DNA of 64,000 bases from Bacteroidota bacterium. Its GTDB lineage: Bacteria > Bacteroidota > JABWAT01. Under the pieces are notes generated by a model. That model was given only the letters and a program-made list of their open reading frames with translations, had not been told where the DNA came from and searched no databases. Positions 44,791-64,000 of this stretch are shown here, piece after piece. Location of the stretch: NCBI GenBank assembly GCA_013360915.1, contig JABWAT010000013.1, positions 1-64,000 on the forward strand. Reading direction: 5' to 3'. Made by a program: the position numbers and the translations under genes. The number at the start of each line of letters is the position of its first letter. The first letter of the stretch is position 1.

Positions 44791-45023
44791 TTTAAATCCG
44801 GATTTAATTCATAAAAAATGGCAAGTGCCCACTCAGAGTGTTCAGCTAACCAGTTAAAAACCAGCTTAAGCGGTTTTTTTGGTAAATAACCAGCATAAAT
44901 CTGCCTGGTTTCAATCACGATTAACGCTTCATGGTCATTGTAAACTGCATGAATGTGCGGAGGACGATGCTCCCCATTATAAACGTGAATCTTGATACCA
45001 TTGAAACGATCAATTAAAGGCAT
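44787..45023 (-). CDS. DUF4160 protein
   Basis: 78 residues matching DUF4160: FNGIKIHVYNGEHRPPHIHA, VIETRQIYAGYLPKKPLKLV and ELNPDLK at the end. The HxxHxHxxY-like cluster (EHRPPHIHAVY) is the family hallmark. It precedes the DUF2442-XRE gene with a 4-base overlap. Possible toxin or effector of a two-gene module; not demonstrated. Confidence 0.87.
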   Translation of the reverse strand: MPLIDRFNGIKIHVYNGEHRPPHIHAVYNDHEALIVIETRQIYAGYLPKKPLKLVFNWLAEHSEWALAIFYELNPDLK

Positions 45024-45152
45024 GGTAGCGTTCGTATAAGCGAATGTATCTAATTAGGTACACGTTTTCAAGTTTCTGAATAAACCAGTCAGTCTGACGA
45101 CGATTTTGGTTGGGAAGGGGTTCTCATGACCGGATGGTCAGCTTTTTGCCTG

Positions 45153-45719
45153 CTATCCGTTATCAATAACGATATCATACCTGTTCAGCAATCCTGGCAA
45201 ACCCGCTAAAGAAAAACGTGTCTTTTTCAGGCGGTTCAGCTCCGGATCAATGGAATAACCATAGGCAGTCCGGAAGTCGGCATGCTCAAGGATGGTACGG
45301 TCAAACACTGCTTTGGACAGATCGCACAGATCGAATACCACACTGGTCAGATTGGCTTCGGTGAAATCGGATTCCTTTAACTGACAATTGCGGAAAACCG
45401 TGTTCCGGATATCCTTCCTGAAGAAGGTTGTATGATTCAACTGACAATTTTCGAATGAAAAGGCCAGTCCGAAGTCATTGCAAAACTCGAACCGGAGTCC
45501 CAGCAGTTTGCAATCCCTGAACCGGACCTCCCGGAAGGCGGTATGGTCGAGCCGGGCCAGACTGAGATTGCAATGGGTAAACGTGCAATCCGTAAAAACG
45601 AAGTCGGAAAGGTTGGAATTGGAAAAGTTGCAACTGTCGAACCGGCAGGCTTCATACTCGCCCTTTTCTATTGAGTCGATCCGGTCGAAGGTTTTATCGG
45701 AGTGGTAAGTTTCCTGCAT
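45153..45719 (-). CDS. Pentapeptide-repeat protein
   Basis: 188 residues built of A(D/N)LxF-type pentapeptides forming a right-handed quadrilateral beta-helix (CRFDSCNFSNSNLSDFVFTD, CKLLGLRFEFC, CQLKESDFTEANLTSVVFDL), with the C-terminal extension YGYSIDPELNRLKKTRFSLA seen in a widespread Bacteroidota group related to Qnr/McbG. Some relatives protect DNA gyrase, but that role is not shown for this one. Confidence 0.87.
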   Translation of the reverse strand: MQETYHSDKTFDRIDSIEKGEYEACRFDSCNFSNSNLSDFVFTDCTFTHCNLSLARLDHTAFREVRFRDCKLLGLRFEFCNDFGLAFSFENCQLNHTTFFRKDIRNTVFRNCQLKESDFTEANLTSVVFDLCDLSKAVFDRTILEHADFRTAYGYSIDPELNRLKKTRFSLAGLPGLLNRYDIVIDNG

Positions 45720-45790
45720 GGGGCTGATTGAGTTGTCCTGGTAGAAGGTTGGCTGTTGTCTGATGTAAATCGGGGTCTGGTGAAGGAGGT

Positions 45791-46252
45791 TCAGGACTGT
45801 TCATCATTCAGTGAATGATATCCTTGTTCACTCAGTTTCTTCAGTGCCTCTTTCATGGCCTTCACCTGTTCTGCCGGATGGCCTATCCATACGGTCACTT
45901 CACCAACCACTCTGAAAGGTTCCCTGGAGCGATATGATTTTGTCGGATTGCCCGGAAACTTTTTATCCGTCAGATCCGGGTCATCTTCGATTGCTCCGGT
46001 GGGCTCTGCCAGGTAGATTCTTTCCGGACCGTCACCAACGGCGAGTTCAGCTCCCCAGATGGCAGCATCCAATGTGGCAGACAGAAAAATAAAGGGGGCG
46101 TTTTTTCGCTGTCCGTAGTTTGAATGGAAACCGGGCTTAATCAGGTCACCGATTCTGAGGTCTGCCTTGGTCCCATGAAAATAGGTTTGGACAAACGGAG
46201 TGGCACCGGCTACGGGTGTGGGTGCATCAGGCTGTGTGTTTTCTGAGGTCAT
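45791..46252 (-). CDS. arr: Rifampin ADP-ribosyltransferase
   Basis: 153 residues with strong Arr-type sequence: YFHGTKADLRIGDLIKPGFH (catalytic H26), NAPFIFLSATLDAAIWGAEL, and the family block EDDPDLTDKKFPGNPTKSYR with REPFRVVGEVT. Arr enzymes use NAD+ to ADP-ribosylate the rifamycin 23-hydroxyl. Composition matches the backbone, and there is no attC site directly beside it, so it looks chromosomal, not a recent cassette. Confidence 0.92.
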   Translation of the reverse strand: MTSENTQPDAPTPVAGATPFVQTYFHGTKADLRIGDLIKPGFHSNYGQRKNAPFIFLSATLDAAIWGAELAVGDGPERIYLAEPTGAIEDDPDLTDKKFPGNPTKSYRSREPFRVVGEVTVWIGHPAEQVKAMKEALKKLSEQGYHSLNDEQS

Positions 46253-46303
46253 CAGGGCATTATATATTAAGTATTGAAAAGTGTGTGGTGACCGGGAATT
46301 TAC

Positions 46304-46777
46304 TTAGTCTGGAATCTGGGTATACTGCTGAGCAACGGCCACCCATCGGCCATTGTCGTAAATGAACGTATACATGTCACGGCCATTGAAGCGCCGGGTC
46401 TCGCCGGCCGAAGTCAGGAATTCCAGGGTGTAATAATAGGTCACAACTGCGGTTTTGTTTTCATTATACAACTGAATCAATGGGTCTGTTTCGATGAATG
46501 AAATGGTTTGTGCATAATTGGCATAACTTTGATATGACTCAATGATGCTGGCTTTTCCTCTCATTCTTTCCGGTGTATCCGGCAAGAAAATAACCATATC
46601 CGGGTGAATGAATAATCCCAGACTATCCATGTTTTCGGTGATAGCCCAATGGCGGTTAATGGTCTTAACCGTGTTCCATGCCTCTGTTTTTATTTCATCA
46701 TCCGTTAGATTCTGGCAATGGCCGGATGTATAAAGAGTCAATGCCAGGAAGGTTGAAAACACGTATTTAATGCTCAT
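46304..46777 (-). CDS. Secreted SnoaL/NTF2-like protein
   Basis: 157 residues with a signal peptide (YVFSTFLALTLYTSGHC). The domain is NTF2/DUF4440-like: AWNTVKTINRHWAITENMDS, HPDMVIFLPDTPERMRGKAS, and the last strands RDMYTFIYDNGRWVAVAQQY. Small-ligand binding or enzyme role unknown. Confidence 0.82.
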   Translation of the reverse strand: MSIKYVFSTFLALTLYTSGHCQNLTDDEIKTEAWNTVKTINRHWAITENMDSLGLFIHPDMVIFLPDTPERMRGKASIIESYQSYANYAQTISFIETDPLIQLYNENKTAVVTYYYTLEFLTSAGETRRFNGRDMYTFIYDNGRWVAVAQQYTQIPD

Positions 46778-46934: not shown

Positions 46935-47066
46935 GAATAACGTTTTGCAGCTACCCGAAGGGCGGGACTTTTACCACAAAACATGATTTGAAAAACAATT
47001 GCTTGATTAACCACAAAACTGTCTTTGGAACATGAAACCCCGCCTTTTGGGTAGGTGCTGTTATGC
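46935..47066. repeat. attC-like recombination site 1
   Basis: Starts with GAATAAC and ends with GTTATGC. The inner arms CTACCCGAAGGGCGGG (46951-46966) and 47039-47054 pair over 16 positions with two G-T wobbles, giving a folded single-strand structure about 130 bases long like integron attC sites. The R' core GTTATGC fits known variants. No integrase is in the window. Confidence 0.7.
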
Positions 47067-47675: not shown

Positions 47676-47808
47676 GCATAACGGTTTGGCGGTATGTTTT
47701 TGTTGCCGATTTCGAAGCACTGTCCTGTCAAGTTACACGAAAGTTTATTAGATGCACAAACGCTGAAATACCCACTATCTCGGCAATAAAATATACCGCC
47801 TGTTATGC
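47676..47808. repeat. attC-like recombination site 2
   Basis: GCATAAC at 47676-47682 and its exact inverse GTTATGC at 47802-47808 bound a 133-base site. Inner arms GGCGGTAT/ATACCGCC and GTTGCCGA/TCGGCAAT pair closely. Same overall length as site 1, so the two bound a cassette of 742 bases from GTTATGC to GTTATGC. Confidence 0.78.
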
Positions 47809-48058
47809 ACTGGCGGTTCTTGTCTGTCCGTAGGTTCCTGTCAAATTGCTCTTTCATATTAAACTTGTCAAATTACTACTTCATTTTCTTTTCTGTCTGT
47901 GTCGCCCGTGTGCTGGCGTGTTTTAATTTTTTCTTTTAAGCGTGGGAGAAAAATTTTTAAATTCATCTCTTGGGTTGGCTTTGCAAGCTCTTTGACAAAG
48001 CTTTGGTTGAAGCGTTGGCTTGCGGGGCTTTGGCAATGTGCTTGCAAATGCGTGGGTT
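47802..48058. repeat. Left end leader and hairpin of the defence island
   Basis: GTTATGCAC is followed by ATATTAAACTTG (47856), GTGTTTTAATTTTTT (47918), AAATTTTTAAATTC (47951) and a 67-base hairpin (47981-48047) with 21-base arms. The mirror image, in inverted orientation and with nearly equal spacing, lies at 59617-59858. Confidence 0.7.
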
Positions 48059-49804
48059 TTAATCTGCTTTCCATCTTAACTCAAATTGATCTGGATTCAG
48101 TTTCAATATCTCTTTTATATTTTTACCACCAATTGAACTCATTCCTTCCATCATTCCAACCATCGTACTAGCAACTAAAGATTGAGCCATTACGCTATCA
48201 TTCTTTTTCAACCAATTTTGAGGGCTAAATATTTTTCCACTTAATTGGGCTTGTTGATTAGCGCTCTTTAATGCTTGATTTAAACAAGTTGAAGCATAAT
48301 GCAAAATTTCTTTACCATATTGCTCAACAATGGCTAATGTTGCAGATGGAAATGGAACCTTATCACCTTGATTATTTGCATAGGCAATTATTGAAGATAT
48401 TGAGAATAGAATGTGGAATCTCACATAACTTTTTGTTGCTTTCAGTAAATCGTCTAAGGGCAAATTATCCCAATCCTTCATTATTATCGAATCCCATTTC
48501 TTTAATGCTAAAACAGAAACTGGATTGTAGTCGGACTTAAATACGTTTCTATACAGTTCATCGAATAGTTTTTTCTCATTGTAAGAAATATTTGGTCTTT
48601 GGCATTGCCAAGCCATTACTGTTTTAGCAAAGTCCGAAACATCAACAACTTTACTTTTATCTTTATTGCCAGGTATTTCCATACCCCTTTGATTTATTAG
48701 TAACCCATCAGGATACATTGCTTCATAAGCACGCTTCAAACTCAAAATAACACGATCGTTACTCTTTAAATCACGTGGTTTAACGGCGCTTTGGCTATTT
48801 GTATTTATGCTTATTTTATCTGCTAAGTCCTTTTGCGGAATCTCATAAAACCTGAATAAAATAAAACTTGTTTCTTTTTCAATTCTTCTTACATCTTCAG
48901 AGCATTTATAAATTGTCGTTAAACTTTGGCAACCGTTTACTACATTTAGATCAAAACATTCAAGTGATGTTTTGGCTTCGTTAAGTTTGAATTCTTTACA
49001 GATAGCTGTAATACCGTTATGAGAAAAGAAAAAATCTTGCGGTCTATCACTTTTGATTGACTGTTTTATTTTTTTATTTATTGTATTCCAACCTAAAGAT
49101 TGCCTTACGTTTTTTCTAAAAAGCCTTTGATCGGATATTCCAGGAAATTTCAAACATTCACTTAATGGCAAGGCAACAATAACACTCCTTGTACCTTTAA
49201 TATCAAATGACATTACTTTATCACTTTCAATTTTTATGGTATGATTGATTGCTGGCAATTCTTTAGACTCAGCATCGGTTAATCTTGTTTCAATAACTTC
49301 TGAATCAACAAGAGTTATATTTGCATTGAAATCCTTTGATTGTTCCAATTTTTCAGCAAACACTTTAAAATCGCTGTCAGCAGCAGTTGTAAGTTTCCCG
49401 GTGGTCAATAATTCAAATGTAATATCGTATTCATCATCTAATGCCTGTCTCAGAGCTTCAATCCTTTCCTTTAGCTTATCATTACCATCCGTTTGTAATG
49501 AATGTAGATCTTGAATTCTAACCCATGCAGATAAAATTTCTTGTAAAGGGCCACTGTCAACATTTCCAGATTCATAAAATTTGCCTTGAATAATCAGAAT
49601 ATTTCTGTTTTCATCATCTATAACCAGAGCATCTATTTTTTTATCGTTTGCACCATCAACAACGCATATTTTTGTTGCTTGTGGAGATTGTAAAAGAACT
49701 CTTCTGACGTACCAAGCAACGAATCTAAATCCATCATTAGAAAAATGATCCTGATAAAATTTATCATTACTTATTTCTGATTTTATCTTCTGTAGTATGC
49801 TCAT
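48059..49804 (-). CDS. AIPR abortive-infection protein
   Basis: 581 residues of the AIPR family. The N-terminus holds a Mrr-like nuclease core with D58 and the QxK pair Q73/K75 (KIDALVID..ILIIQGKF), and the middle carries the family motif FFSHNGITAICKEF, VVNGCQSLTTIYK, KISINTNSQSAVKPRDLKSN. AIPR proteins are linked to phage resistance, probably by nuclease action. It is the last gene of the five-gene defence operon, 5 bases after the restriction subunit, and is AT-rich. Confidence 0.88.
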   Translation of the reverse strand: MSILQKIKSEISNDKFYQDHFSNDGFRFVAWYVRRVLLQSPQATKICVVDGANDKKIDALVIDDENRNILIIQGKFYESGNVDSGPLQEILSAWVRIQDLHSLQTDGNDKLKERIEALRQALDDEYDITFELLTTGKLTTAADSDFKVFAEKLEQSKDFNANITLVDSEVIETRLTDAESKELPAINHTIKIESDKVMSFDIKGTRSVIVALPLSECLKFPGISDQRLFRKNVRQSLGWNTINKKIKQSIKSDRPQDFFFSHNGITAICKEFKLNEAKTSLECFDLNVVNGCQSLTTIYKCSEDVRRIEKETSFILFRFYEIPQKDLADKISINTNSQSAVKPRDLKSNDRVILSLKRAYEAMYPDGLLINQRGMEIPGNKDKSKVVDVSDFAKTVMAWQCQRPNISYNEKKLFDELYRNVFKSDYNPVSVLALKKWDSIIMKDWDNLPLDDLLKATKSYVRFHILFSISSIIAYANNQGDKVPFPSATLAIVEQYGKEILHYASTCLNQALKSANQQAQLSGKIFSPQNWLKKNDSVMAQSLVASTMVGMMEGMSSIGGKNIKEILKLNPDQFELRWKAD

Positions 49805-49809
49805 AATAT

Positions 49810-52494
49810 TTATTTTTCAAGTTGATTCATTAATGTTGATTTCCAGATTTTATACTTTTCGTCTTTTATTGATTGGAAAAATGCTGCAATATCGCTTCCA
49901 TCATCGGAAAGGAACTTGAAATAATACCGTTCTTCCAATTTACCTTCTTCCAATTTCTTGTTTAAATTATCAAAATGCACTTTACCATCTCTGTATTTCG
50001 CTTTGTTCTTATTGCTGTCATCATCTTTCTTTTTGGTTTCAATAACGAGGATGTCATTTGTGCCTTTTACTTTCAGGAAAAAGTCAGGATTGAATGTTTC
50101 GTTCTTAACGTGAGTTCTTGCTTTAGTCTCCGGTTTGTATGAATATGGGAAACCATAAAATCCCTTATCAGCCGATTTTAGGAATGCATCAACCAATTCA
50201 ATATTCAGGAAAAGTGTTTTTGCAAATTCAATTTCAGGAGTATATGAAACGTACAATGAATTAAGACTTGTTTTAAATTTTGATTCGTCAACCTTTTGCA
50301 AGTGCTTATTTATTTCTGTCTGAAGAGATGCTAATTCGGCAATTTTTGAAGCAATTGCAACCTTGTCGGAATCGGGCTTTGATAAGTCAGCCGTTAAATC
50401 TGCTATTTGTTTATCAAGACTGGTATAGGTTTTAAACAATGTCTTTTCATCGTCTTTGTAAAAGTCAATTGTTTTTTCTGTGTAGAACAAAAATCCATTT
50501 CTCTTCAAACTGTCTTCGCTGAATGAAAGTGATGGAAAGTGTTCTGGGTTTATTTCAAAAAGTGCATCAGAAACATTTGATACCCTTGGCACTTCTTTTC
50601 CGGTTTCTCTGAACATTGGGCCAAATGCCTGTTGAGCTGATAAATAGTTTTCCTTGCTTAAAAAATCATTCTCATACCCTTTATCTTTCAGTTCTTTTTG
50701 AATGGATGTTTTTAATTTCCCTTTTGGATATTCTTGAGCAATTTTTGGATCTTTATCTTTCAAATATGTGTAAAGATTGGTAACTGCCTGATCAATACCG
50801 TAAACCTCTTTTTCTTCAAATACATAACTGATAGAATTATATTGAAAATCGGCTTTGTATTCCGACACTTTTCTTTGTGGATTAAAACCAAATGTCTTTG
50901 GGGATTGTGCTTTTTCTTTTTTGGTTTCTTTTGTTGTTTCCTTTGGCTCATATTTCAGGTTATGCAACTTGAAAGCATATTTACTTCTGCTTTTATCATA
51001 ACCCCATGAAAGCCGGTTTTCTAATTCCAATATCTCATTATATAGGTTTTGGATTTCGTGATTCCACTTCTCGTGATTATTTACTTTCAGAAAAATTTTA
51101 TCCGCACCAATGGCATCTTTAAGGTTTTGTGGTATTCTTAAACCACGACCTAAGACCTGTGCAATAAGCAATTTTGAATTAAAAGCTTTCTGTTTGTGAG
51201 GCACTACCTGAAATACATTTTTCACATCCCAACCTTCTGTAAGCATTGCGACTGAAATAATCCATTCAACGGGATTTACTTCTTTAGGATTATCTACCGA
51301 TTTTAATAATTTCAGATTGTCTTTTCTGATACTCTCTCCGGCTCTGCCTTCTTTGTCCTTTGATAATATTGGAGCAATTGCTTTGCCATCTTTCGTGTCT
51401 TTCCCAGGCAATCCAGATGTTACCCAAATTGCATTTGTTGCAGCTTCTTCAAAACTAATTTTTTCTTTCTCTGAAATAAATTTCACCAATTCATTCCATT
51501 CAATTATTACTTCTGCTATGCTGGCACATACAACTATAGAAATAGGTTTTACATATTTACCGTATGTTTTAATATTTTCCTGGTGTACTGCCCATATTTG
51601 TTGATAGCCCTTATCATCCTTGTATTCATCAAAAGTTTTTGGGTCAACTTTTTTTACAATGCCTTTGTCAACGGCTTGTTTTAAGCCAAACCGATATATG
51701 ACATCATTAAAATAGTCGTTATTATCTGAACCATAGTAAGTTGTACCGGTTACATTTACGATGTATTTAAAATTGTATTCCTTGTCTTTCAGAAATTCAA
51801 TCCATTTTTTATCCTTACTGTCTGCTTCACCTGAAAAAATATGATGTGCTTCATCATTCATAACTAAAACACTCTGACCTTCGCTTTTAAAACTTGCCTG
51901 AATTGATGAACCAGTCCGCTGATATGTTGCGTGTATGTTTTCGATGCAAATGTCGTTTGGCAAAATAGTTTCAGAAGCATTTTTGATTTCCGGTTGAACA
52001 TATTTTGGGTTAATCGCTTTCAAAATATCAACCAAATCCTTACGGCTGTTAAGTGTTTTGAATTTATCTGTTAATCCTTCTTCTATGGTTAAAGACGGAC
52101 AAAGCACCAATACCTTATCAATAGCTTGCTCGCAAAGCATTACCTGAGCAATACCAAACATTAAAAAGCTTTTTCCTGAACCTGTTGCCAAGTCCATTGA
52201 GCAGGCTTTGAATTTTCTTAATGGAATTGCATTGTCCGACAAATAATCATCCTTGCTTGGATAACGGTCTTTTATTTTAGGATTTTTTAAATAGTTTTCC
52301 TTTGCTAAATCTTCCATTGTTTTATATTTCTCGGAGAGAAGAAAACCAACGGCAGATTTAACTGCATCACGATGAAAAGAATAATCATCGTTGTACAATG
52401 CTTCAAGATAGGTGTCGTATTTATTCAGGATGTCATTAACGGCATCATCATCGAATTTTAATACCAAATCGGTATTGCGTATGCTTATACTCAT
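49810..52494 (-). CDS. res: Type III-like restriction subunit (helicase-nuclease)
   Basis: 894 residues. SF2 helicase: Walker A ATGSGKS (103-109), DEAH box (214-217), motif V-like MLTEGWDVKNV (417-427) and motif VI QVLGRGLRIP (446-455). The C-terminal PD-(D/E)XK nuclease reads NPD (802-804) and ETKKK (from 819). It should translocate on DNA and cut unmodified sites in complex with the adjacent methyltransferase. Start and stop overlap by one base (TAATG) with the mod gene. Low GC compared with the backbone. Confidence 0.9.
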   Translation of the reverse strand: MSISIRNTDLVLKFDDDAVNDILNKYDTYLEALYNDDYSFHRDAVKSAVGFLLSEKYKTMEDLAKENYLKNPKIKDRYPSKDDYLSDNAIPLRKFKACSMDLATGSGKSFLMFGIAQVMLCEQAIDKVLVLCPSLTIEEGLTDKFKTLNSRKDLVDILKAINPKYVQPEIKNASETILPNDICIENIHATYQRTGSSIQASFKSEGQSVLVMNDEAHHIFSGEADSKDKKWIEFLKDKEYNFKYIVNVTGTTYYGSDNNDYFNDVIYRFGLKQAVDKGIVKKVDPKTFDEYKDDKGYQQIWAVHQENIKTYGKYVKPISIVVCASIAEVIIEWNELVKFISEKEKISFEEAATNAIWVTSGLPGKDTKDGKAIAPILSKDKEGRAGESIRKDNLKLLKSVDNPKEVNPVEWIISVAMLTEGWDVKNVFQVVPHKQKAFNSKLLIAQVLGRGLRIPQNLKDAIGADKIFLKVNNHEKWNHEIQNLYNEILELENRLSWGYDKSRSKYAFKLHNLKYEPKETTKETKKEKAQSPKTFGFNPQRKVSEYKADFQYNSISYVFEEKEVYGIDQAVTNLYTYLKDKDPKIAQEYPKGKLKTSIQKELKDKGYENDFLSKENYLSAQQAFGPMFRETGKEVPRVSNVSDALFEINPEHFPSLSFSEDSLKRNGFLFYTEKTIDFYKDDEKTLFKTYTSLDKQIADLTADLSKPDSDKVAIASKIAELASLQTEINKHLQKVDESKFKTSLNSLYVSYTPEIEFAKTLFLNIELVDAFLKSADKGFYGFPYSYKPETKARTHVKNETFNPDFFLKVKGTNDILVIETKKKDDDSNKNKAKYRDGKVHFDNLNKKLEEGKLEERYYFKFLSDDGSDIAAFFQSIKDEKYKIWKSTLMNQLEK

Positions 52495-54848
52495 TATTTA
52501 AAATCTTTTTTGTCTAAAACTAATTTTTTCTCGTTACCGTATTCATCAATCAAAATGACTGCAAGCTTTGCTTTTTTCCACTTTTCCGCATCAATGCTGA
52601 TTTCAACAGGAGTTGTTTCATCTTTTACCAAGTCTTTTCCCCAAAGGTGCATATCCATTGTAAACGGGTCGGCTTCGTAATCAAGGTCAATTAAAACCAA
52701 TGAAAGTGTTTCAAAATTTTTAAAATCCTCCGGAGAATAAAGCAAACCATCAGAATAAAATTCACTCAACCTGATTGTAAATTGGTCTGTTTCAAACATT
52801 CCTTCTTTCTTTTTCTGCTTATGCAAATTATATTTCACTTGTGGCTGAGAAACAAAGTCAAAGCCAAACGCATCTATAACTTCGTTAACATTTTCTTCTG
52901 ATTTGGGTTGTTTGAAACTGCTTAACTCTCCGCTTTGAATAAGTCGGATAAGAACAGAAACAGGAACTTTCAGAAAAGTGTAAACAGTATCGCCCAGCTT
53001 AATTTCATCCTGCATAAAGTTAATGCTTTGCGTAGGTGCAATCACATAAAAACGTTCACCGGCTTTCCCTTTCAAATAACTGTGCAATTCCGAAACGTAA
53101 TCTTCATCAATGGCAATTTTTTTCTTTTCAGGATAATTCCAGATGTAAGCACTATGAACACCAATGTAACCATCAACATTAAAGCCGTTAATACTGTGTT
53201 CATTTTTTCGGACTTCAAACAACTTCATTACAAATTCCTTGTATTGCTCCCAATGAAGATTTAAAATATTCTCTTTATCATAAACACCTGCCGTCAAATA
53301 TGAAAATGTTTTAGTGTTTATGATTTTACCCGTCTCATTTTTGCCTTTTGACTCAATAAATAAAAATTGAATTTCGATGTCGTTTATTTCAAAACAAATA
53401 TATCCCTTTTCATTTTCATATAATTCTTCATCAGTAAGTTTAAGTTGGTCTCTGTTTAATGATAAACTTATAGTTTTTTCCTTTGTAGTTTCTTTAATGA
53501 ATAAAGTAAGTTTCTCAAGATAGTTATAGTCTATACTTTTTATCGCTTTTATTGATTTGTCTGTAAATATTATACTTATGCTATTAGAGAGAGCTTTTTC
53601 AATATCATCTAAACGTTCAATTTCGTTCTGTTTTTCGTTCTGTTTACCTTCTATTTCAGAATGTAAATTAAGAAGTCTTTTCTGTATAGAGTATATGGAT
53701 AATTTTCCGCAATCTATACCAATCCACTTTCTATGTAGTTTTTCCGCAACAGATAAAGTTGTTCCACTACCAGCAAAACAGTCAATTACAATATCACCTT
53801 CATTTGAAGATGCTTTAATAATTCGTTCAAGAAGCCTTTCAGGTTTTTGAGTTGGATAATTTCCTTTGCCACCCTTCATACGTCCTAAATCCTGCCAAAT
53901 ATCTTGAATTACTTGCCCAGATTTTATTCTATCTTCCAAATACACAACTCTACATCTTTGAGCACCTTTAGGATATTGTGGGAGGAATAAATAACCAGTC
54001 TTAAGTTTTTCCTCCATTTCTTCTTCTGTTCCAATCCACTGCAATCCCTTTTTGGGTATTACTCCTCTCCAATTAAAATATTTATCTTTATTACTTCCTT
54101 TCCAAGTAGCCCTTTCAAGTTTTAAAGGTTTTGCTCCAACTGGCAAAGGAAATTTCAGTTTTACGATTTTCCCATCTTGCAATTTCATCCATGAATACTC
54201 TTTCAAAGCACTTTTGGACATTGCTGTTGTAATTCTATCCCAATAATAATCTGCTTCCCCTTTAGTATAATAATAGATTACATCATGAATATTCCCATAT
54301 TTATTTTTAGCATCATTATGAGGATCCGACCTTTGCCAAATAATTTCATTTCTAAAGTTTTCCTCACCAAAAACTTCATCCAAAATTGCTTTTATATAAT
54401 TTCCCTTTTTATAGTCAAGATGGAGATATAAAGAACCACCATCTGCTAAAATTTCTTTAAGAAACACAAGTCTTCTTCTTATAAACTCAATAAATTTTGA
54501 ACCAGCAACTTTATCAGCATAAGCTTTTTCCTTGTCTTTCATAAAGTCGCTTTTTGTAGCAAAAGGCGGGTCAATATAAATGAGTTTTATCTTATTTCTC
54601 AGTCCGTATTTGTTTGGGCCACCTTCTTTCAGGTCTTCGTAAAGAGATTTTAGTGCAAGTAAGTTGTCGCCAAAAATGAGCATATTCCGCCAACCGTCCT
54701 CCCATTCGTTGCCTTCATTAAAAACTCTCACTTCCTGCAATGGGGCTTCAAGTGTATTGGTCAAAATACTTGCTCTTGGTTCTTTGTCAGCATAAACCAG
54801 TTCGTATTCTGCTTTAACTTTTATGTATCCTTTTTTGTCGTTTGCCAT
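52494..54848 (-). CDS. mod: Type III-like DNA adenine methyltransferase
   Basis: 784 residues with beta-class order: motif IV DPPF (93-96) first, motif [10 protein letters not shown] (356-364) later, and [13 protein letters not shown] just ahead of it. The stretch between them (about 170-330) is the target-recognition region. A long C-terminal extension (about 385-784) has no domain I recognise. It modifies adenine and supplies sequence specificity to the restriction subunit encoded next. It begins 32 bases after the PLD nuclease gene in the same operon. Confidence 0.9.
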
Positions 54849-54880
54849 TATATCAAAATATCTAAATTCAGGTTTCTAAA

Positions 54881-56236
54881 TTACTTGTTTGTTTTCAGAT
54901 TCAGGCTATATTCCTTCATTACCTGTTCCCACTTTTTTTGCACATCCTTCGAAATCATCATAGATTCTTCATTTGCTACCTGTTGCTTCTCATTCTTGCC
55001 GAATGATAGAAAATTGAAACTGCCTGCAATATAATAGTCATTGTCTTTGATAACCAGTTTGCGGTGCGTGCCTGTCAGGCGTGAACCAATGCTGTTAAAA
55101 TGTGTCGGTAAATGAATGAGGATGAATGTTTCTTTGTTTTCGCGTTGCAGTTCCTTTACTTTTTCAAGTGTTTGGTAATCGTGTTCGTCTTTTTCGTTTA
55201 TTCCGTAAAGTATTATCAACTGCTTTTTGTCTTTCAGCATTTTTTCAAACAATGGTAGGTATTCCATTGTGGCACGTTTAATCCAAGGGCTTTCAATCAA
55301 GATTTTCTCTTTTACATTATTTAATGCTTCAAGAAATTTATGTTTGGTTTCCCATATTGTTAATGTGGCAAGTTCTGAAGTTATAACTTGTGGTTTAATA
55401 GGCTGTACTGGTTCTTCGGTTACTGCTGCAAGTTCTTCAAAACTGGTGCGGTCTGAACTGCTTAATGAATAAATGTAGTGTCGGTATTCCGAGTTGAATT
55501 TTGCAGATAATGTTTTATCAGGTTTAAGTGTGTCAAAATCTCTTACTTCCAACTTCGCTTCAAGATTTGAATTTCTTTCTGGAATGTACTCAATCAGCCA
55601 ATAATTCAACCAAAAGCCACTTTCACCATCTCTGAAACTGTCAAACTTAATTTCATCGGCATTATAGCTTATTAAATAGCATTTGTTTTCATTGAGTTGT
55701 TTGAACGTGTCTGCAATCTGTTGAAATTTATTCTCAATAATCTCAGGGCTTCTGTTCGGTATTTTAATCTCCGATGTAAGATATTTTTGCAGTTTGGCTT
55801 TGTTAGCAGATTCCTGTTTAATTGTCAAAACATCACCTGAAATTCCATCCAATAAAAACTCAAATTCTTCGTGTTCTTCAATACGTAGAATCTTTTCGTT
55901 TTCCAGAAACTTTTCCCCTTCGGGTGCTACAATCCATTTATCTGCAATTAAATCAACATAATTCTTTTCTTTAAGAAGAAATAACTCTCGAAGTATAAAC
56001 TCATCCTGCTCACCCAATCCGAGGAATTGAAATAGAGTTTTTTGAGTGTTAAAACCTTGCTGAATTGCTCTAAGAAGGACATTATAAACCTTCACAAGAG
56101 AGCCGTCAGGCTGCTTGTTTACAAGTGCATCAATTTTTATCTTTCTAACAGGATAGCTAAATGCAATAAGTTCATTTAACTTAAATCCGGTTGGCGATTT
56201 ATCTTTTAATTCTTTATATGCTTCTAATTCTGTCAT
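54881..56236 (-). CDS. mkoB: Mokosh PLD-family nuclease (MkoB)
   Basis: 451 residues. The first 160 residues are helical, winged-helix-like (NVLLRAIQQGFNTQKTLFQF); a middle beta region follows. The C-terminal phospholipase D domain (about 290-440) has one HKD motif: H391, K393, D398 and the S406/N408 pair (HRKLVIKD..IAGSFN), so it should act as a dimer. The ATG overlaps the stop of the kinase-helicase gene. A kinase-helicase followed by a PLD nuclease is the two-gene composition of type I Mokosh. Confidence 0.83.
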   Translation of the reverse strand: MTELEAYKELKDKSPTGFKLNELIAFSYPVRKIKIDALVNKQPDGSLVKVYNVLLRAIQQGFNTQKTLFQFLGLGEQDEFILRELFLLKEKNYVDLIADKWIVAPEGEKFLENEKILRIEEHEEFEFLLDGISGDVLTIKQESANKAKLQKYLTSEIKIPNRSPEIIENKFQQIADTFKQLNENKCYLISYNADEIKFDSFRDGESGFWLNYWLIEYIPERNSNLEAKLEVRDFDTLKPDKTLSAKFNSEYRHYIYSLSSSDRTSFEELAAVTEEPVQPIKPQVITSELATLTIWETKHKFLEALNNVKEKILIESPWIKRATMEYLPLFEKMLKDKKQLIILYGINEKDEHDYQTLEKVKELQRENKETFILIHLPTHFNSIGSRLTGTHRKLVIKDNDYYIAGSFNFLSFGKNEKQQVANEESMMISKDVQKKWEQVMKEYSLNLKTNK

Positions 56237-59200
56237 TGCGCCAATTGTTTAATAAATTCAGCCTTTGCAACCCATTCCGGCTTAAGATATTCAAGATACA
56301 ATTGCAAAGCTGCTTTTTTCCCATTAAGCCTTTTTGTCGGGGCATTGATTAAGCCATGATAATCACCCACAATAATGAGCAATTTCTTTTGTCGTGATAA
56401 GGCTACATTAATTCGGTTTGGTACTTCAAGGAAACCAAGATTTAAGCCAGCTCCGCTTTTAACAAGGTCAACAATTACAATATCACGTTCTAAACCCTGA
56501 AAACGGTCAACAACTGAAACAGTAAGTTTATCTTCGGATTTATTCCACTTCCAAATATTGTTTATACCGTTCTGATATTTTTTCTTGTCAATTTTCTTTT
56601 TTAATTCTCTGAATTGTGCAGTATATCCAGTAATAACACCAAAGGAATACTCTTTAACTTTTGGATATTTATTTAGATGCTCCAGAATTTCAGCAATCAA
56701 ATCTGCACTTAATTTATTAAACGAAGAATTATTATTGTCCTTTTCATTTTTGGTGTGACTCCCAATATCAATGAATAAAATTGAGCTATTAACGGCTAAA
56801 GGAAGATTGTGTTCTTTGGAAATATCTCTTTTTACCGGAATAATAGGTTCATCGCCCTCTGGCTCATAGAAGCATTTTGAAGTTAAAAGAACTTGCTGTT
56901 CAGATGAACGTCTGCACTCAGTAAGTTGTGCTTTGTAATCGGGTTCTATTTGTGTTATAACCTGTTCAAATAAACTTGGGCGGTTAAAATAATCGTCCCA
57001 GTTTTCCAGATCATCGGATTCTTTTTTAAACTTCTCTCTTAGCCAACCTTCGACTTCTCTTGTCGCTGTGAGCATGGGGCGTAATTGCCTATGGTCACCA
57101 ACGAAAATCAGATTTTTCCCAGTTATAATTGGAACCAAAGCTTCGGCTGTAGTCGCTTTGCCAGATTCATCCATAATTACATAGTCAAATTCGAAGTGGT
57201 ATTTGTTGTATTTCTTTGCTGCTATGTGATTACAAGTTGCACCAATAACCCGAATACTATCAACAAGCTTTTGATTTAATGCACTTTTTTCATCAAGTGA
57301 ATTAATGGTTACAATCCAGTCTCTGTGCAAATCTTGCCGTTTAACAAATTCACCGATATTTGTTTTAAGTACATTGTCAATGAATGGAATTGCTTCGCTT
57401 TTGGTTTTAGGTAAATTATGAAGTTCTTTCAGATTTTGAATTCGGCTAACAATGTGTTCTATTTTTTCTTTTGCTTTATTCCAGTCTTTTACTTCATTTA
57501 ATATTTCAAAAATCGTTGATGCAAATGGATTGCTTTTTTGAAGATTTTGCTTGAAACTATTTATATTATTTTTGAAGTTTCTTTCAGCAGTTTCTCTCAC
57601 TTGCTGTTTCCATCCTTCCAGTTTACGGTCTAAAGTATGTTTTCTAATAATAGGAACTCTTGGAGCAGTAATGCCACTTAATCGTAAAATAGGAATGTCG
57701 TTTTTAAGCAAATTTTCAAGAACCTGATCAACAGCATTATTTGTCTGTGAGGTAATCAGAATTTTCGCTTCAGGTTTTGAGGATAGTATTTGAAATACAA
57801 TTTCAGTAATTACGGTGGTTTTTCCTGTTCCGGGAGGTCCCTGTATTATTGAAAGAGGGGTTTTGTTCAGTGCATTTCTAATAGCTTTTGTTTGATTATC
57901 GGAATATTGAAAAGGAATATTTTTATCATCTTTTTGCCAAACCTTTTCAATTGGTGTATAATCTGAAAAGGATGGAGGAAGTTCATTTGGTTTAAAGAGG
58001 TAATAAATTAAATCAGGGTTTTGAACTTCGTTTTTATCAACTTTTTTAATCGCTTCAAGTTGCCGATTTTTTTCTTCTTCCTTTTTCGCAGTATTTTCAA
58101 AAATATAACCTGTAACAGGGATGTTCTCTTTTTTTAGTCTTTCACAATCCTTTATTTTAAAAAGTTTATCCTTTGAAAAGTACTCATAAGGTTTTCCAGC
58201 AAATTCAACTGTTTCTTTATTTTGTTTTCTGTCTCCGGTCGCTGCAATTATATATTCAAACCCATCTGAGTTAACATCGTTTCCCTCTTCTATGTGTTTT
58301 TGTAAAAACCCTAAACTACTGCATTTTTCATTCTCTTTAATCTGAAAAACAATTTCATCACCATTGACTTTAAAACTGGAATATTGCAAACGCAGAGATT
58401 TATTTGCAATTACTTTTAATTCCTCTTTCAATAATTCAGAATAGAACCCCAGTTCGTCTCTTACTGCTCTTCTGTTTTCACGAAGTGAAATGTCTTTTGC
58501 TTTAAGTTCAGACCATTTCTGAAAATATGAAGTTAAATCAGCTTTATTTTGTGGATATTCATAAGTATAATTGAATTTGAAAGGTAGCTTTTTCCCTTCT
58601 CTGATTTTCCGTTCTGCGATTTTAGAATCAATGGATGAAAAATAATTGATGCCATTAAATAGTAACTTTCTTTCATCTTTAATCCATAAAACGCCTTCAC
58701 AAATAAAACTGCCAAGAATTACATCTGCTAAGAAGTTTAAACCTGGCTTTGGTGCAAGATCAAAAATAGGTGCATTATTTTGTAATAATTCTAATATTTC
58801 ATTTTCATGACCTGCTCTAAATGAAACCCAAACTGATTCAGTTTGTGAAGCATTTGCAAGTTTTCTCAAAAACGATAAAACATCTTGCCATTGAGGTCTG
58901 TCAGCCGGAGTGTTTGATAGTAATTTTTGAAGAATCAAATTATACTCTTCCGGAATAGTTTCTTGTTTTTCATTAAAGAACCATTCAAGAACTTTCCCCA
59001 ATGAATAAATGTCAGATTGATATGGAAAGCCACCTGCATGTAACTTGTTCAATTTTTCAGGAGCAGCAAAACTACTTGCAAAAATTTCAAGGTTTTTCTC
59101 CTGACTAAGTGTTTTTGTGATATCAGCAAGACCGAAATCTATAAGATAAAATTGTCCGTTTTTATCAATTAAAATATTTCCGGGATGAACATCACCATGA

Positions 59201-59577
59201 TTAATCTTGAATTTTGTATGTAATTCTTGTAGGCAGTCTGCTAAATCAATTAATCCACTTAGTGCGGTTTGGGTATTGAATTCCCAGAATGAAGTTTCAA
59301 AAGGTCTTGCATCTTCTAAAAATTCATAAACAATTGCATAAGCTGTTATTTCATTATCAAAACCATATTCAATTATTGGAGGCAAAGCGCTATGTCTGGC
59401 TTTTTGTAAATGCCTGAGTTTGTCAGATAAAATTTTTGCTTTTGTTTCGTTCTTTTCAATACCAAGAATCCATTTAACCCAAAATTGCTGTCCATTTTCA
59501 TCACTGGCTATGCAATTCTGCGAGTATCCTCTTTTTACTATATCCCTTGAATTATATTGATATTTTTCAAATAACAT
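56233..59577 (-). CDS. mkoA: Mokosh Ser/Thr kinase-SF1 helicase fusion (MkoA)
   Basis: 1114 residues. N-terminal protein kinase (about 1-240): K35, catalytic D129 (HGDVHPGN), metal D147 (LIDFG) and SDIYSLGKVLEWF. A linker follows, then a COG1112-type SF1 helicase: Walker A GPPGTGKTT (580-588), motif II DESG (803-806), motif III GDHRQLRP (827-834), motif V VDRFQGLERD (1023-1032) and motif VI NVALSRQ. First gene of the defence operon. No Shine-Dalgarno is apparent before the ATG, unlike many backbone genes. Kinase plus COG1112 helicase with a PLD partner matches type I Mokosh. Confidence 0.85.
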   Translation of the reverse strand: MLFEKYQYNSRDIVKRGYSQNCIASDENGQQFWVKWILGIEKNETKAKILSDKLRHLQKARHSALPPIIEYGFDNEITAYAIVYEFLEDARPFETSFWEFNTQTALSGLIDLADCLQELHTKFKINHGDVHPGNILIDKNGQFYLIDFGLADITKTLSQEKNLEIFASSFAAPEKLNKLHAGGFPYQSDIYSLGKVLEWFFNEKQETIPEEYNLILQKLLSNTPADRPQWQDVLSFLRKLANASQTESVWVSFRAGHENEILELLQNNAPIFDLAPKPGLNFLADVILGSFICEGVLWIKDERKLLFNGINYFSSIDSKIAERKIREGKKLPFKFNYTYEYPQNKADLTSYFQKWSELKAKDISLRENRRAVRDELGFYSELLKEELKVIANKSLRLQYSSFKVNGDEIVFQIKENEKCSSLGFLQKHIEEGNDVNSDGFEYIIAATGDRKQNKETVEFAGKPYEYFSKDKLFKIKDCERLKKENIPVTGYIFENTAKKEEEKNRQLEAIKKVDKNEVQNPDLIYYLFKPNELPPSFSDYTPIEKVWQKDDKNIPFQYSDNQTKAIRNALNKTPLSIIQGPPGTGKTTVITEIVFQILSSKPEAKILITSQTNNAVDQVLENLLKNDIPILRLSGITAPRVPIIRKHTLDRKLEGWKQQVRETAERNFKNNINSFKQNLQKSNPFASTIFEILNEVKDWNKAKEKIEHIVSRIQNLKELHNLPKTKSEAIPFIDNVLKTNIGEFVKRQDLHRDWIVTINSLDEKSALNQKLVDSIRVIGATCNHIAAKKYNKYHFEFDYVIMDESGKATTAEALVPIITGKNLIFVGDHRQLRPMLTATREVEGWLREKFKKESDDLENWDDYFNRPSLFEQVITQIEPDYKAQLTECRRSSEQQVLLTSKCFYEPEGDEPIIPVKRDISKEHNLPLAVNSSILFIDIGSHTKNEKDNNNSSFNKLSADLIAEILEHLNKYPKVKEYSFGVITGYTAQFRELKKKIDKKKYQNGINNIWKWNKSEDKLTVSVVDRFQGLERDIVIVDLVKSGAGLNLGFLEVPNRINVALSRQKKLLIIVGDYHGLINAPTKRLNGKKAALQLYLEYLKPEWVAKAEFIKQLAQ

Positions 59578-60581
59578 ACGAAGTACTATATGGTTGTTAG
59601 TTTGCGGGTCGGAAAGATTGCACTCTTTGACAAAGCTTTGGTTGCAGCGCTGGCTTGTGTGGCTTTGGCAATGTGTGCAATGTGGGTCGGCAGAATTTCA
59701 AAATTTTTGTGCGGTGGGTAAAAAAAATTAAAACACATTTGGATCGGCAATGAGTGTCGGGTTATTTGTCTATCAGTTTCGTTTTTCATACCAAGTTTAA
59801 TATTCTATTTTCATTGTCAATTTGCAGTGTCGTTGTCTTTTCTCCGCTTGTGCATAACTATCTTATAGCTCTCAAAAATATTCCCCAATCCGGCTGTATT
59901 GGGTAGATATGGGAATATTTATGCCTGGTTCGCCAGATAACAGGTAAATCCTTCGGTACCTGTCGTTAACAGGATCTTGGTTCTTCTGAAAGGTCCATTG
60001 CTGGCGTCTTTGTTTATCCCCGGTCATCGTTGATTGGCTGTGTTCAGGTAATGCCTGAATGTAACGGATCGCATTCTCCTTTTCAAGAAGATGGTGGCCT
60101 GGGGTTGGGGAGCGGGAAAAGTGACGAGTAACGCGTGACGAGAGACGAGTAGGCGTGACAAGCTCTGAAGGGGTTTTCCTCACTTTCCGGGTTTTGCATT
60201 TGTCAGGGTTCGCAGACAGGATAGCCCCTGACTCTTGATCCCTCTCCGGTGAAGAGGGAGTTTTCCGTGGTAGCTCCCTGTCATGTTCACTCCCTTTCCG
60301 GGGTTAACGATACATACCGGGTCCGGTTGGGTCGTGGGGCCCGGAAAAACAGAACCTGTTCCTGATTTTCTTTTTCGGTGGAGATAGAATCATCCTTTTT
60401 CCCACGTCACAGAAACGGCCCGCCTTCGAAGAAGAAAGTGGTAGTCTGATTTTATTTTGCAAGGCAGTGGCTTACATTTAATGAAATATTAATCATTCCG
60501 GTGCGGGTAAATGTCCATTGGTCCCAGGACGATGATCGGGTGGTTTAACAACTTGTCATGCTTAACCAGAAGGGTCTGTTT
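59578..60581. other. Long intergenic region right of the island
   Basis: About 1 kb without a credible gene. It holds the right island end (59617-59858), a stem-loop AAATATTCCC/GGGAATATTT (about 59876-59921), GTGACGAG-type repeats (60119-60160) and a CCCTCT/AGAGGG dyad near 60239. The defence operon promoter must lie in the first 250 bases; none is obvious. Confidence 0.55.
59617..59858. repeat. Right end hairpin and leader of the defence island
   Basis: Hairpin 59617-59681 with 20-base arms (17 of 20 paired), then GAATTTCAAAATTTTT (59693), AAAAAATTAAAACAC (59721), CAAGTTTAATAT (59792) and GTGCATAAC (59850-59858). These mirror the left end in inverted order and nearly equal spacing. A 53-base part of the hairpin (59623-59675) is 49/53 identical to 47988-48040 in direct orientation, possible because the hairpin is near-palindromic. 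Confidence 0.7.
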
Positions 60582-63500
60582 ATGAAACAATGGATATCGG
60601 GTCTAGTAATCGGTTACCTCGGCTTAACCGCATCGGCTTTTGCTGCTGCAAACAATCCGCCAGCATTTACCAGTCCTTCACCCGTGGGTCCGGTCCTCTA
60701 TTCGGTTCCGTTTTCCCACGCGATTTCGGCTACCGATAGTGAATCAGATCCGATTACTTTCTACACCCTCGGAGCCGAACAGCCCGATGCCAGTCATCAG
60801 ACGGGGTATTACTGGGCAACCGGCTACCAGAGTGTGATCTGGCAATCTTTCACAACCGAAGTGACCGGGTTTCTGACCAAAGCAGGAATGCAATGTGCCG
60901 GTAACACCTCCATGGGCCGGCAGGCTTTAACCATTTATGCAGGCACGGGGACCTCGGGTGCGGTTCTGTACAGTGATACCCTCGATTTTGGTCCGATACT
61001 CGATTATCACACCATTTCCATTCCCGTCTCCGCAGGTATTCTGGTCGAGTCAGGGCAAGTCTATACAATAGCGGTGACCAATGCGACTGGCTACATGATC
61101 GAAGACTTATACAGCAACCCGTATCCGGCTGGTCAATCCAGTTGGAGCGGGTCATCTGATTTTCAGTTTATTACCCGGGTTCAGCCGTTGAACAGTACCA
61201 CTGGTTATTCCTGGTTAAATCTGAATGATAATGAAGATGGAACCGGTGAACTGACTGGTTTGCCGTTGGCATCCGATGCCGGGACGGTTTCCATTACCCT
61301 GGTGGCCTTTGCGGCCGGTCAGTTTGCCACACAATCGGTTTCCTTCACGGTGGAATCGCCGGTTCCGGCTCCGGCCGATCTTCAGGCTGCGGCCGGAAAT
61401 GAAACGATAACCCTTACCTGGGATCCGGTCACCCATCCCATGGCGGTTCGGTATCTGCTCTACGGAGGATCGTCACCCAATCCGACCACCCTCATCGACA
61501 GCATCGGGAATCTGCCCGATACCTCCTACACCGTGACCGGACTTCCGAATAATGAAATCCGGTACTTTCGAATGAGGGTCCGCGATGATCAGGGTGGACT
61601 GAGCCGTTTTTCTGCCGAAACATATGCCGTCCCGGTTCAGGAAGCCGGATTGGCTTTCAACTTCAACGGAATTACCTCGATCAGTTTTCCGCGCACGGTC
61701 CAGAATGATTTCACCATTGAATTCTGGATGCAGAGCACACAGATAGCCGGGGGAACGGGTCAATGGTGGCAGGCCCCGGGTCTGGTGGATGCCGAGTCGA
61801 ATAGCCGCCCGGATGATTTCGGGGTGTCGTTCGGTGCCGGCCGGGTGGTCTTTGGAGTTGGCAACGGATCTACCGATACCTCCATTGCCGGTCCCTATAT
61901 CGCCGACGGGGGATGGCATCATGTGGCCGCCACCCGCAGTCAGTCCACCGGTGTCTTTCAATTGTATGTCGATGGGGTTCTCGTCGCCACGGGTCTGGGT
62001 GGAACCAATACGCTCGATGCCAGTGAAGTCATCCGCATCGGTCAGGTGAATCCGGCCAGTCACTTTTTCAATGGCAACATGGATGACATCCGCATCTGGA
62101 ATGTGGTCCGTTCGGAAAGTGAGATCCGGGAGTATTTCGGAACCCGGCTGACGGGTAAAGAACCGGGACTGGTGACTTACCTCAATTTTGATGAGCAGGT
62201 GGGTGTTCCGGTACTGGATTATTCGCGCCAGCCATCCACGCTGACTGTTTCAGGAAATCAGTACAAGCTTTCTTCGTATGCGATGCTTCCTTTCAACGTT
62301 CGCAACCTGGCAGGCACTCCGGAAAACAGTGTGGTGAAACTGTCCTGGTCGCCTAACCGCGAGGGAGACATTGCTTTTTACCGGGTGGCCCGCGGAACGG
62401 TTAACAATTACTATCAATCCTCCCCGCTTGCCTCAGAACTCACCGATACCGTGTTTACCGATGAAGTCGGTGAGGGAGATCATTTGTTTTTTTACTGGGT
62501 AACGGCCACGGATCAGTCGGGACGTGATGGCGGATTTGGGACGTCCGCCATGGTGTCATCGGTTGATTCGGCTTTCACCAGCGTGGTCTCGTTTGATGGC
62601 CCCTTTCTGCCGGTCGGTTGGGAAATCGTGAATCCCGATGACAGTTATACCTGGCAGGTGGTCGATGTGAATTATTCCGGCGGCGGGGAAGAATCGATTC
62701 AGTCCCAGGATCGTCCTGATGGACGGAGTGGAAAAGGTAAACCGGGTCAGACACCGGTGCTGCTTGCATCTCCATCAGAATCGGGTGCCATTTCTGCGGT
62801 GGGTCCGAACTATGCGGCCCGGATGAATTTTTATAGTTACGGAACCATTGGTCAGGCCGATACCCTGAAAACAAAGTTGTTCCGGGTTGAGCCCAAATCC
62901 TGGCTTAAGTTTGATCTTGCTTACCGCGGATATGACGGCAGTTATGTGGATTCACTCAAGGTGATCGTCCTGCCCGACAATCCGGCTGAACCGAAGGTGA
63001 AATTATTCGAAAAGAGCACCTTTTCGGGATTAAACAGCATCCGGGGACAACAGTATTCTTCTTTCGTTCCATCCTATCCTGCGGCCTGGGGTGAGCGCGG
63101 TTTCGACCTGAGTGCATGGGAAGGTCAGCTTATCCGGATTGCCTTTGTAAGTGTGACGGGCTATGGAAACAATCTGTACATCGACAATGTACGTGTGGAC
63201 CGTGGCCTGCCGACACCGCAAACACCGGTGACGCTGGGCAGTGACGGTCAGGTTCAGGTGGCCTGGTCTCCGGTGACCGGATCCAACTTTAAACAGTATG
63301 TGGTGAAAGGGGCCATTCAAGGTGATGAACTGGTGACCCTTGGTACCACCCCCGAAGGCAATCCGCTCGATACGGTTTTTGTTCATACTGGTCTGGAAAA
63401 CGGGACCATCTGGGAATATCAGGTGGCCGCCGTGAATGAACAGGATTCGGTTGGTAACTGGTCGGTGGTGAAAACCGGCATCCCGGTTACCGGTGCCGGA

Positions 63501-64000
63501 AATGCACTTTCTTTTGATGGACTATCCACCATGGTTTCTCTGGATAATTCCATTCAGTTTGCTGGTTCATCGTTTACCATTGAAGCCTGGGTGAAGGTCT
63601 ATGGCAGTTTTGTGATGCGAAAGGCGGTTACCATCGGCGGGTCGGTGGAAGCCGGGGTGAACAATGAAAACCAATGGTACTTCTACCTGAACGGAACTGA
63701 GATTTTAAGTGAGGTGACGCTCGAAGATACGCTCTGGCATCATCTTGCGGTTGCATTCAATGCGGGTACGAATCAGATGGATTTATATGTGGATGGGTTC
63801 CTGGCAGCAACCGGAATGACTCAATCTGGTTTGAATACCGATTCGGATGTGTATCTGGGCGACTTGTCGGGTGAATCGGATTATTTCTACGGTCAGATTG
63901 ATGAGGTTCGGTTCTGGAATAGTTACCGGTCGGAATCTGAGATTCTGAATAACCGAGATGTACATCTGGATGGAAGCCATCCGAATCTGCTGGGGATGTA
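60582..64000 (+). CDS. Giant secreted LamG/FN3/cleaved-adhesin protein (3' end outside window)
   Basis: At least 1139 residues; the frame stays open to the window edge. GAAGGG lies 7 bases before the ATG, which opens a signal peptide (WISGLVIGYLGLTASAFA). Domains in order: a putative Ig (He_PIG-like) domain whose two halves are separated by an inserted jelly-roll-type region (about 60-200), FN3 (260-353), LamG (356-530), FN3 (568-660), a cleaved-adhesin-like domain (663-876), FN3 (878-970), and a second LamG from about 972. It should be exported to the surface and bind carbohydrate or matrix. Any C-terminal sorting signal is out of view. Confidence 0.85.
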   Translation, partial: MKQWISGLVIGYLGLTASAFAAANNPPAFTSPSPVGPVLYSVPFSHAISATDSESDPITFYTLGAEQPDASHQTGYYWATGYQSVIWQSFTTEVTGFLTKAGMQCAGNTSMGRQALTIYAGTGTSGAVLYSDTLDFGPILDYHTISIPVSAGILVESGQVYTIAVTNATGYMIEDLYSNPYPAGQSSWSGSSDFQFITRVQPLNSTTGYSWLNLNDNEDGTGELTGLPLASDAGTVSITLVAFAAGQFATQSVSFTVESPVPAPADLQAAAGNETITLTWDPVTHPMAVRYLLYGGSSPNPTTLIDSIGNLPDTSYTVTGLPNNEIRYFRMRVRDDQGGLSRFSAETYAVPVQEAGLAFNFNGITSISFPRTVQNDFTIEFWMQSTQIAGGTGQWWQAPGLVDAESNSRPDDFGVSFGAGRVVFGVGNGSTDTSIAGPYIADGGWHHVAATRSQSTGVFQLYVDGVLVATGLGGTNTLDASEVIRIGQVNPASHFFNGNMDDIRIWNVVRSESEIREYFGTRLTGKEPGLVTYLNFDEQVGVPVLDYSRQPSTLTVSGNQYKLSSYAMLPFNVRNLAGTPENSVVKLSWSPNREGDIAFYRVARGTVNNYYQSSPLASELTDTVFTDEVGEGDHLFFYWVTATDQSGRDGGFGTSAMVSSVDSAFTSVVSFDGPFLPVGWEIVNPDDSYTWQVVDVNYSGGGEESIQSQDRPDGRSGKGKPGQTPVLLASPSESGAISAVGPNYAARMNFYSYGTIGQADTLKTKLFRVEPKSWLKFDLAYRGYDGSYVDSLKVIVLPDNPAEPKVKLFEKSTFSGLNSIRGQQYSSFVPSYPAAWGERGFDLSAWEGQLIRIAFVSVTGYGNNLYIDNVRVDRGLPTPQTPVTLGSDGQVQVAWSPVTGSNFKQYVVKGAIQGDELVTLGTTPEGNPLDTVFVHTGLENGTIWEYQVAAVNEQDSVGNWSVVKTGIPVTGAGNALSFDGLSTMVSLDNSIQFAGSSFTIEAWVKVYGSFVMRKAVTIGGSVEAGVNNENQWYFYLNGTEILSEVTLEDTLWHHLAVAFNAGTNQMDLYVDGFLAATGMTQSGLNTDSDVYLGDLSGESDYFYGQIDEVRFWNSYRSESEILNNRDVHLDGSHPNLLGM

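Follow-up and report, generated by a model that had tools for sequence, protein, structure and literature searches.

A type I Mokosh operon as the probable cargo of an integron-type cassette in Bacteroidota, with an I2-less recombinase as the inferred integrase

The locus raises the question of what a Mokosh-like gene pair belongs to, and how it came to lie in a low-GC block at about 48 to 60 kb of the window (the whole stretch of 64,000 nucleotides that was analysed), where GC is 0.33 compared with about 0.53 on the right. The explanation favoured here, held with considerable confidence, is that a type I Mokosh operon is the cargo of an integron-type cassette from a family with an I2-less integrase, an explanation in which defence, mobility and the assignment of the integrase are inferred. 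The pair itself consists of two genes:

56233 to 59577, minus strand: mkoA, 1114 aa, N-terminal Ser/Thr kinase and SF1 Upf1/COG1112-type helicase
54881 to 56236, minus strand: mkoB, 451-aa PLD nuclease with a single HKD, with a 4-nt start/stop overlap with mkoA

A sequence-only reading had proposed a type I Mokosh system at these positions, from a Ser/Thr kinase fused to a COG1112 helicase and an overlapping PLD nuclease gene, and had named a defence-system model search as the check that would refute it if both proteins failed. Both proteins pass in PADLOC, where MkoA matches the MkoA model PDLC03920 end to end (E=5e-140; residues 15-1097 on profile positions 16-1096 of 1112) and MkoB matches the MkoB model PDLC03922 (E=1.3e-24) as well as the PLD part of MkoC (2e-13). 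Pfam identifies Pkinase (6e-15), AAA_11 (3e-40) and AAA_12 (3e-31) in MkoA, and in MkoB only PLDc_2, at 0.0012 and under its gathering score. Both reading frames and their 4-nt overlap were confirmed, and gene order, fusion and overlap all fit the type I composition. The further claim that all catalytic motifs are intact stands for the kinase (K35, HGDVHPGN 127-134, DFG 147, APE 172), the helicase (Walker A GPPGTGKT 580, MDES 802, motifs III, V and VI) and the one HKD of MkoB (H391-K393-D398), but it has to be qualified, as motif reading found no canonical GxGxxG glycine loop in the MkoA kinase.

The gene families are observed directly, and the MkoA helicase is nearest by sequence to Upf1/Nam7 and SMUBP2 structures. 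Relatives of the pair are encoded in a different genus (locus L006), at about 97% amino acid identity for MkoA and about 91% for MkoB, and the Oscillatoria plasmid NC_019763 carries distant MkoA and PLD relatives in adjacent genes. A NERD domain is given for type I Mokosh (PMC10952713); NERD is not among the 25 Pfam matches listed for the window proteins, and since the window MkoA matches a model of its own length (1112 positions), the domain may not be universal in type I. A scan of the window with Rfam yielded a single sub-threshold msr match, inside mkoA. On sequence evidence, the pair is supported as type I Mokosh, a further member of a known family, and both its anti-phage activity and phage defence by the cassette that carries it are inferred from that family. 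Mokosh has been described as degrading viral transcripts (PMC11291487), and no mechanistic study of it was found in the literature searched. In the mechanism proposed here, the Upf1-like helicase of MkoA would detect phage-derived nucleic acid, its kinase domain would gate or signal, and the MkoB PLD nuclease would cut nucleic acid.

The pair does not stand alone: mkoAB opens an operon of five genes carried by an integron-type cassette, a context missed in the first reading. Three further genes follow on the same strand:

52494 to 54848, minus strand: mod, Mod-like N6/N4 DNA methyltransferase, type III RM-like (Pfam N6_N4_Mtase 4e-44; PADLOC MTase_II/III)
49810 to 52494, minus strand: res, Res-like helicase/restriction subunit, with a 1-nt overlap with mod (Pfam ResIII 5e-13; PADLOC REase_III 6e-10)
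48059 to 49804, minus strand: AIPR gene, AIPR-family abortive-infection protein of 581 aa (Pfam AIPR 1.3e-28)

All five genes lie within the low-GC block in the order mkoA-mkoB-mod-res-AIPR, separated by overlaps of 4 and 1 nt and gaps of 32 and 5 nt. Regarding a type III RM assignment, the best PADLOC model for Mod is a type II model and the Res match is weak. L006, which derives from a MAG, as do several of the compared genomes (MAG.504, JAKLJL010000003.1; another genus of the same family as the window genome), encodes mkoA-mkoB-AIPR at 92-97% protein identity, with the AIPR gene directly after mkoB, a DUF3644 gene 3' of it, and mod-res absent. The Mod-Res pair is present without Mokosh in another genome, G073, so that it is read as a module separate from Mokosh, and its candidacy as a Mokosh component was rejected on both counts. 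Mod-Res and the AIPR protein are instead proposed as separate defence modules that would share a common transcription unit. Elsewhere, L007:7463-19751 holds a 62%-identical MkoA within a type I RM operon, together with a MkoB relative of 272 aa without a PLD domain; neither AIPR nor window-type Mod-Res was found beside this MkoA.

The limits of the unit emerge from the comparison with L006 and from the anatomy of the sites at its two ends:

47682 to 59857, minus strand: whole Mokosh cassette, 12,176 bp between two G^TT points
59852 to 59858, minus strand: 5' junction G^TTATGC, the attI/cassette boundary and divergence point from L006
47676 to 47808, minus strand: attC1, 133 nt, GCATAAC...GTTATGC, the 3' end of the Mokosh cassette
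46935 to 47066, minus strand: attC2, 132 nt, the 3' end of a second cassette

The Mokosh unit is observed in two genera, with 93% nucleotide identity over mkoA-mkoB and 83% over AIPR, and the Mokosh-AIPR unit of L006 measures 8.1 kb. Homology begins at GTTATGC (window 59858, L006 9783) and ends within the R' box of an attC-like palindrome 133 nt long (window 47676-47808, L006 17778-17910), while the flanks are unrelated save for a short attI-like tract; in L006 further attC lie downstream of the Mokosh cassette. These junctions are direct observations. G^TTRRRY is the integron cut site, and a genuine cassette opens with the bases that complete its own attC, so that its 5' heptamer complements R''. 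The Mokosh cassette behaves in this manner over a distance of 12 kb, its 5' heptamer GTTATGC complementing GCATAAC, the R'' of attC1, at 7/7 positions. The second cassette, of 741 bp (0.74 kb) with two small ORFs, likewise complements its own attC (2/2 window cassettes), and the R'' of attC2 matches the R' of attC1 exactly.

The attC sites possess paired R''/R' boxes and a foldable stem. In the attC model R1, attC1 scores E 3.6e-15, but it belongs to the training set, and R1 is mostly a sequence model, since RNAalifold found only 6 pairs. In Markov sequence the stem scan has a background of 0.19 hits per 10 kb per strand, and 126 kb of ordinary chromosome yielded 2; the scan under-counts attC, since two C3 sites and one C10 site with good R1 E-values were missed. 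Near each end of the Mokosh cassette, at 47988-48040 and 59623-59675, is a copy of a 53-nt direct repeat (92%), possibly a trace of cassette fusion; a further cassette (L111) has GCCAAAGC-rich tracts resembling it in its leader. A 67-aa ORF that precedes mkoA was discarded as a gene, having no family match, and is regarded as cassette leader containing the 53-nt repeat. The genes adjoining the array at 43686-46777 encode a rifampin ADP-ribosyltransferase (arr), a pentapeptide-repeat protein, a DUF4440/SnoaL protein and a small protein beside an HTH gene; this stretch, at 43.7-46.8 kb, looked cassette-like, yet the stem scan detected no attC among its genes, and it was not retained. On the other side, at 60558-63998, laminin-G-like and fibronectin III domains are encoded by a large ORF that is divergent from the array and continues past the window edge.

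If the unit is a cassette, an attI and an integrase should be sought at its 5' end, where two features were recognized:

59852 to 59925, minus strand: attI-like site, AAATATTCCCATATCTACCC...GAGAGCTATAAGATA^GTTATGC, which aligns to the attI that follows the C31 recombinase
59962 to 60159, minus strand: probable integrase relic, the C-terminal ~65-75 aa of an I2-less integrase (profile i-E about 0.001)

The attI-like tract aligns with the attI of C31, a contig of the same genome, at a score of 100, where 300 random stretches reached at most 42. C31 encodes a 363-aa tyrosine recombinase, followed by its attI-like stretch, a cassette and an attC. No intact integrase was found beside the window array; the relic match is weak but is the best that the recombinase profile gives in the window, and it is collinear with attI. 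Because this C-terminal relic stands just before attI, the window array probably represents an integron that has lost its integrase to decay. The C31 recombinase reaches 206 bits with TIGR02249, under the cut-off of 265, and its best solved relative is XerA (4a8e, 1e-44). A fold search placed XerA (5hxy) and IntI4 level at the top and did not discriminate between them, the structure model being only moderate (pLDDT 72, pTM 0.47). Relative to Xer, the enzyme has an extra N-terminal region of about 85 residues, and in the alignment the IntI-specific I2 insert is absent from it. The unit is called integron-type rather than a canonical integron because the criterion of an IntI with I2 is not fulfilled. 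The other sequence criteria are satisfied, namely an attI with a G^TTRRRY insertion point, attC sites with paired boxes and a foldable stem, and a cassette 5' end complementary to its own R'', which gives the unit the functional components of an integron.

In the proposed sequence of events, the family integrase would be a XerA-like tyrosine recombinase without the I2 helix, of which C31 has an intact copy with a matching attI. The 12.2-kb unit would have been captured as a circle, its own attC recombining site-specifically into attI at G^TT, with a predicted circular-cassette junction of ...AAACCG^TTATGCACAAGCGG..., and the integrase adjoining the window attI would have decayed after capture. 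Mobility of the cassette today is inferred from junctions and homology, in the absence of a same-genus empty-site comparison and of excision data.

The recombinase is not peculiar to this genome, since 95 of 297 Bacteroidota genomes have a homologue at E<=1e-70, although not all of the lower-scoring ones were inspected. GKKDR and HxxRHS are 58-61 residues apart in all I2-less members that were measured, as against 60-67 for chromosomal Xer and 100 for the two IntI included, and the gap at I2 relative to IntI is about 40 residues in all measured members. An attI-like motif was located 3' of the recombinase in about half of the first 13 homologues examined, and visual inspection recognized ...TATAAAC(G/A)A^GTTRnnn after the stop codon at 20/20 further best-scoring loci. 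Heptamer complementarity is likewise observed across the family: the attI heptamer exactly complements the R'' of the first attC in 17 of 22 arrays (permuted mean 2.4, maximum 8 in 5000), consecutive attC do so in 16 of 32 pairs from 22 arrays (mean 2.0, maximum 8), and cassette ends overall in 33 of 54 tests over 22 arrays. For the half of consecutive attC pairs that fail to chain, missed sites (most likely) or decay are assumed. Lengths of attC in the family cluster at 130-134 nt. Exactly matched cassettes are typically about 1 kb in size, and of the four largest, the first two (12.2 and 8.1 kb) have Mokosh as cargo, the third (6.3 kb) type I RM and the fourth (5.0 kb) type II RM.

Other arrays add further cargo. 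C3 (L119:227-5379, minus strand) has the same attC family and a cassette of roughly 4.2 kb with an apparent cytosine DNA methyltransferase and a UvrD-like helicase-nuclease, whose boundary heptamer is mutated (GTAAGCC) with a matching change in R'' (GGCTTAC). The cassettes after Mokosh at L006:18359-22176 encode YLATT and SLATT-like proteins and two ThsB-type TIR proteins, and are read from these genes as more defence cargo. Additionally, in three genomes (L023:231-1001, L100 and L116) the cassette that adjoins attI carries a gene of the LinB-like lincosamide-nucleotidyltransferase family, assigned through Pfam for L023 and by a similar start sequence for L100 and L116.

In the tree, IntI groups with the I2-less enzymes, separately from the chromosomal XerC/D of the same genomes (100/100), and IntI is a single clade among the I2-less enzymes, with moderate supports (83/81 and 87/90) and a midpoint root. 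This nesting fits an I2-less ancestor, while I2 loss or a different root is not excluded. The acquisition of I2 is regarded as what endowed integrases with single-strand recombination, and a lack of intermediates for integron integrases has been noted (PMC7790495); given that role, how an I2-less enzyme handles folded attC is the central puzzle. The broader proposal, that widespread Bacteroidota integrons use an I2-less Xer-like integrase forming an ancestral grade to IntI and carry multi-gene defence systems as giant cassettes, is tentative and falls somewhat short of an even chance.

It is conceivable, though unlikely, that a canonical I2-bearing IntI moves these arrays in trans, the Mokosh cassette included, and that the I2-less recombinase plays no part in this or is left over from an older function. 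The window genome does encode a full-length IntI with its own array at C23 (L020:10046-11002, TIGR02249 414 bits), IntI and the I2-less recombinase occur together in 8 of 28 genomes that have the latter, and the I2 insertion has been called essential for integron function (PMC8138268). However, no canonical IntI over the cut-off is present in the other 20, of which 11 have exact attI-attC or attC-attC matches, and the attI motif lies at the 3' end of the I2-less gene. The C23 array (L020:11722-16027, extending to about 230 nt from the contig end) has chained attC of 144-155 nt rather than 130-134 nt, and for this reason, and because it lies on another contig, the C23 IntI was set aside as the obvious partner of the window array. 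The I2-less enzyme is retained, by inference, as the recombining integrase.

The remaining readings concern the cargo and its setting. The tight spacing of all five genes would suit a single integrated system, an extended Mokosh with a methylation and an AIPR arm, which is nonetheless improbable when L006 keeps mkoAB and AIPR intact with no Mod-Res at all, G073 has Mod-Res without Mokosh, and L007 has MkoA and a MkoB relative without AIPR or window-type Mod-Res. Decay of the Mokosh pair, or a housekeeping RNA role in place of defence, is about equally improbable: the missing GxGxxG loop and the PLD-less MkoB relative in L007 speak for it, but identities of 97% and 91% across genera, otherwise intact motifs and defence genes as neighbours speak against it. 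Lastly, a low-GC island of defence genes (0.33 vs 0.53) could have arrived through some other element, its attC-like hairpins arising by chance; this is strongly disfavoured and barely credible against junctions that coincide in two genera, complementary heptamers and an attI homology score of 100 where the random maximum was 42.

Neither a five-gene giant cassette nor an I2-less integron class is described in the literature searched, which left subscription journals and preprints mostly uncovered; this integron type, widespread in Bacteroidota, is apparently undescribed. Giant cassettes such as the 12.2-kb Mokosh cassette would escape searches that group attC at <4 kb spacing, a criterion given in PMC9668308. 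If the cassette reading is true, a whole defence operon, not a single gene, travels as one integron cassette, and the turnover of defence islands is linked to integron recombination. It would also supply the missing I2-less relatives of integron integrases and make the origin of attC recombination directly testable.

Type I Mokosh, as Millman et al. reportedly set out in 2022, consists of MkoA and MkoB. The window pair resembles it in the kinase-helicase fusion, the adjacent PLD gene and the full-length match to the MkoA model, and differs in that its 451-aa MkoB matches a 610-position model only in part and that the pair shares a five-gene cassette with Mod-Res and AIPR. The array shares with chromosomal integrons and CALIN the attI, attC, G^TT junctions, complementarity of R'' and 5' heptamer, and tandem cassettes, whereas the putative integrase lacks I2 and its gene lies immediately 5' of attI, pointing in the direction of the array. 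A single ORF per cassette is the general rule, with two or none in some cases (PMC8618304), unlike the five-gene 12-kb cassette described here. For Bacteroidetes, IntegronFinder 2.0 reports only In0 from an earlier survey and then one complete integron, in Salinibacter (PMC9024848). XerA proteins are the best solved relatives of the C31 enzyme and share its lack of an I2 insert, but C31-type enzymes group with IntI, sit beside attI and attC arrays and have some 85 additional N-terminal residues. Anti-phage systems have been described as integron cassettes by Darracq et al. 2024, as cited in PMC12137116; defence genes are cassette cargo in both cases, and what distinguishes the present arrays is that whole multi-gene systems (Mokosh with RM and AIPR, type I RM, type II RM) each make up a single cassette of 5-12 kb.
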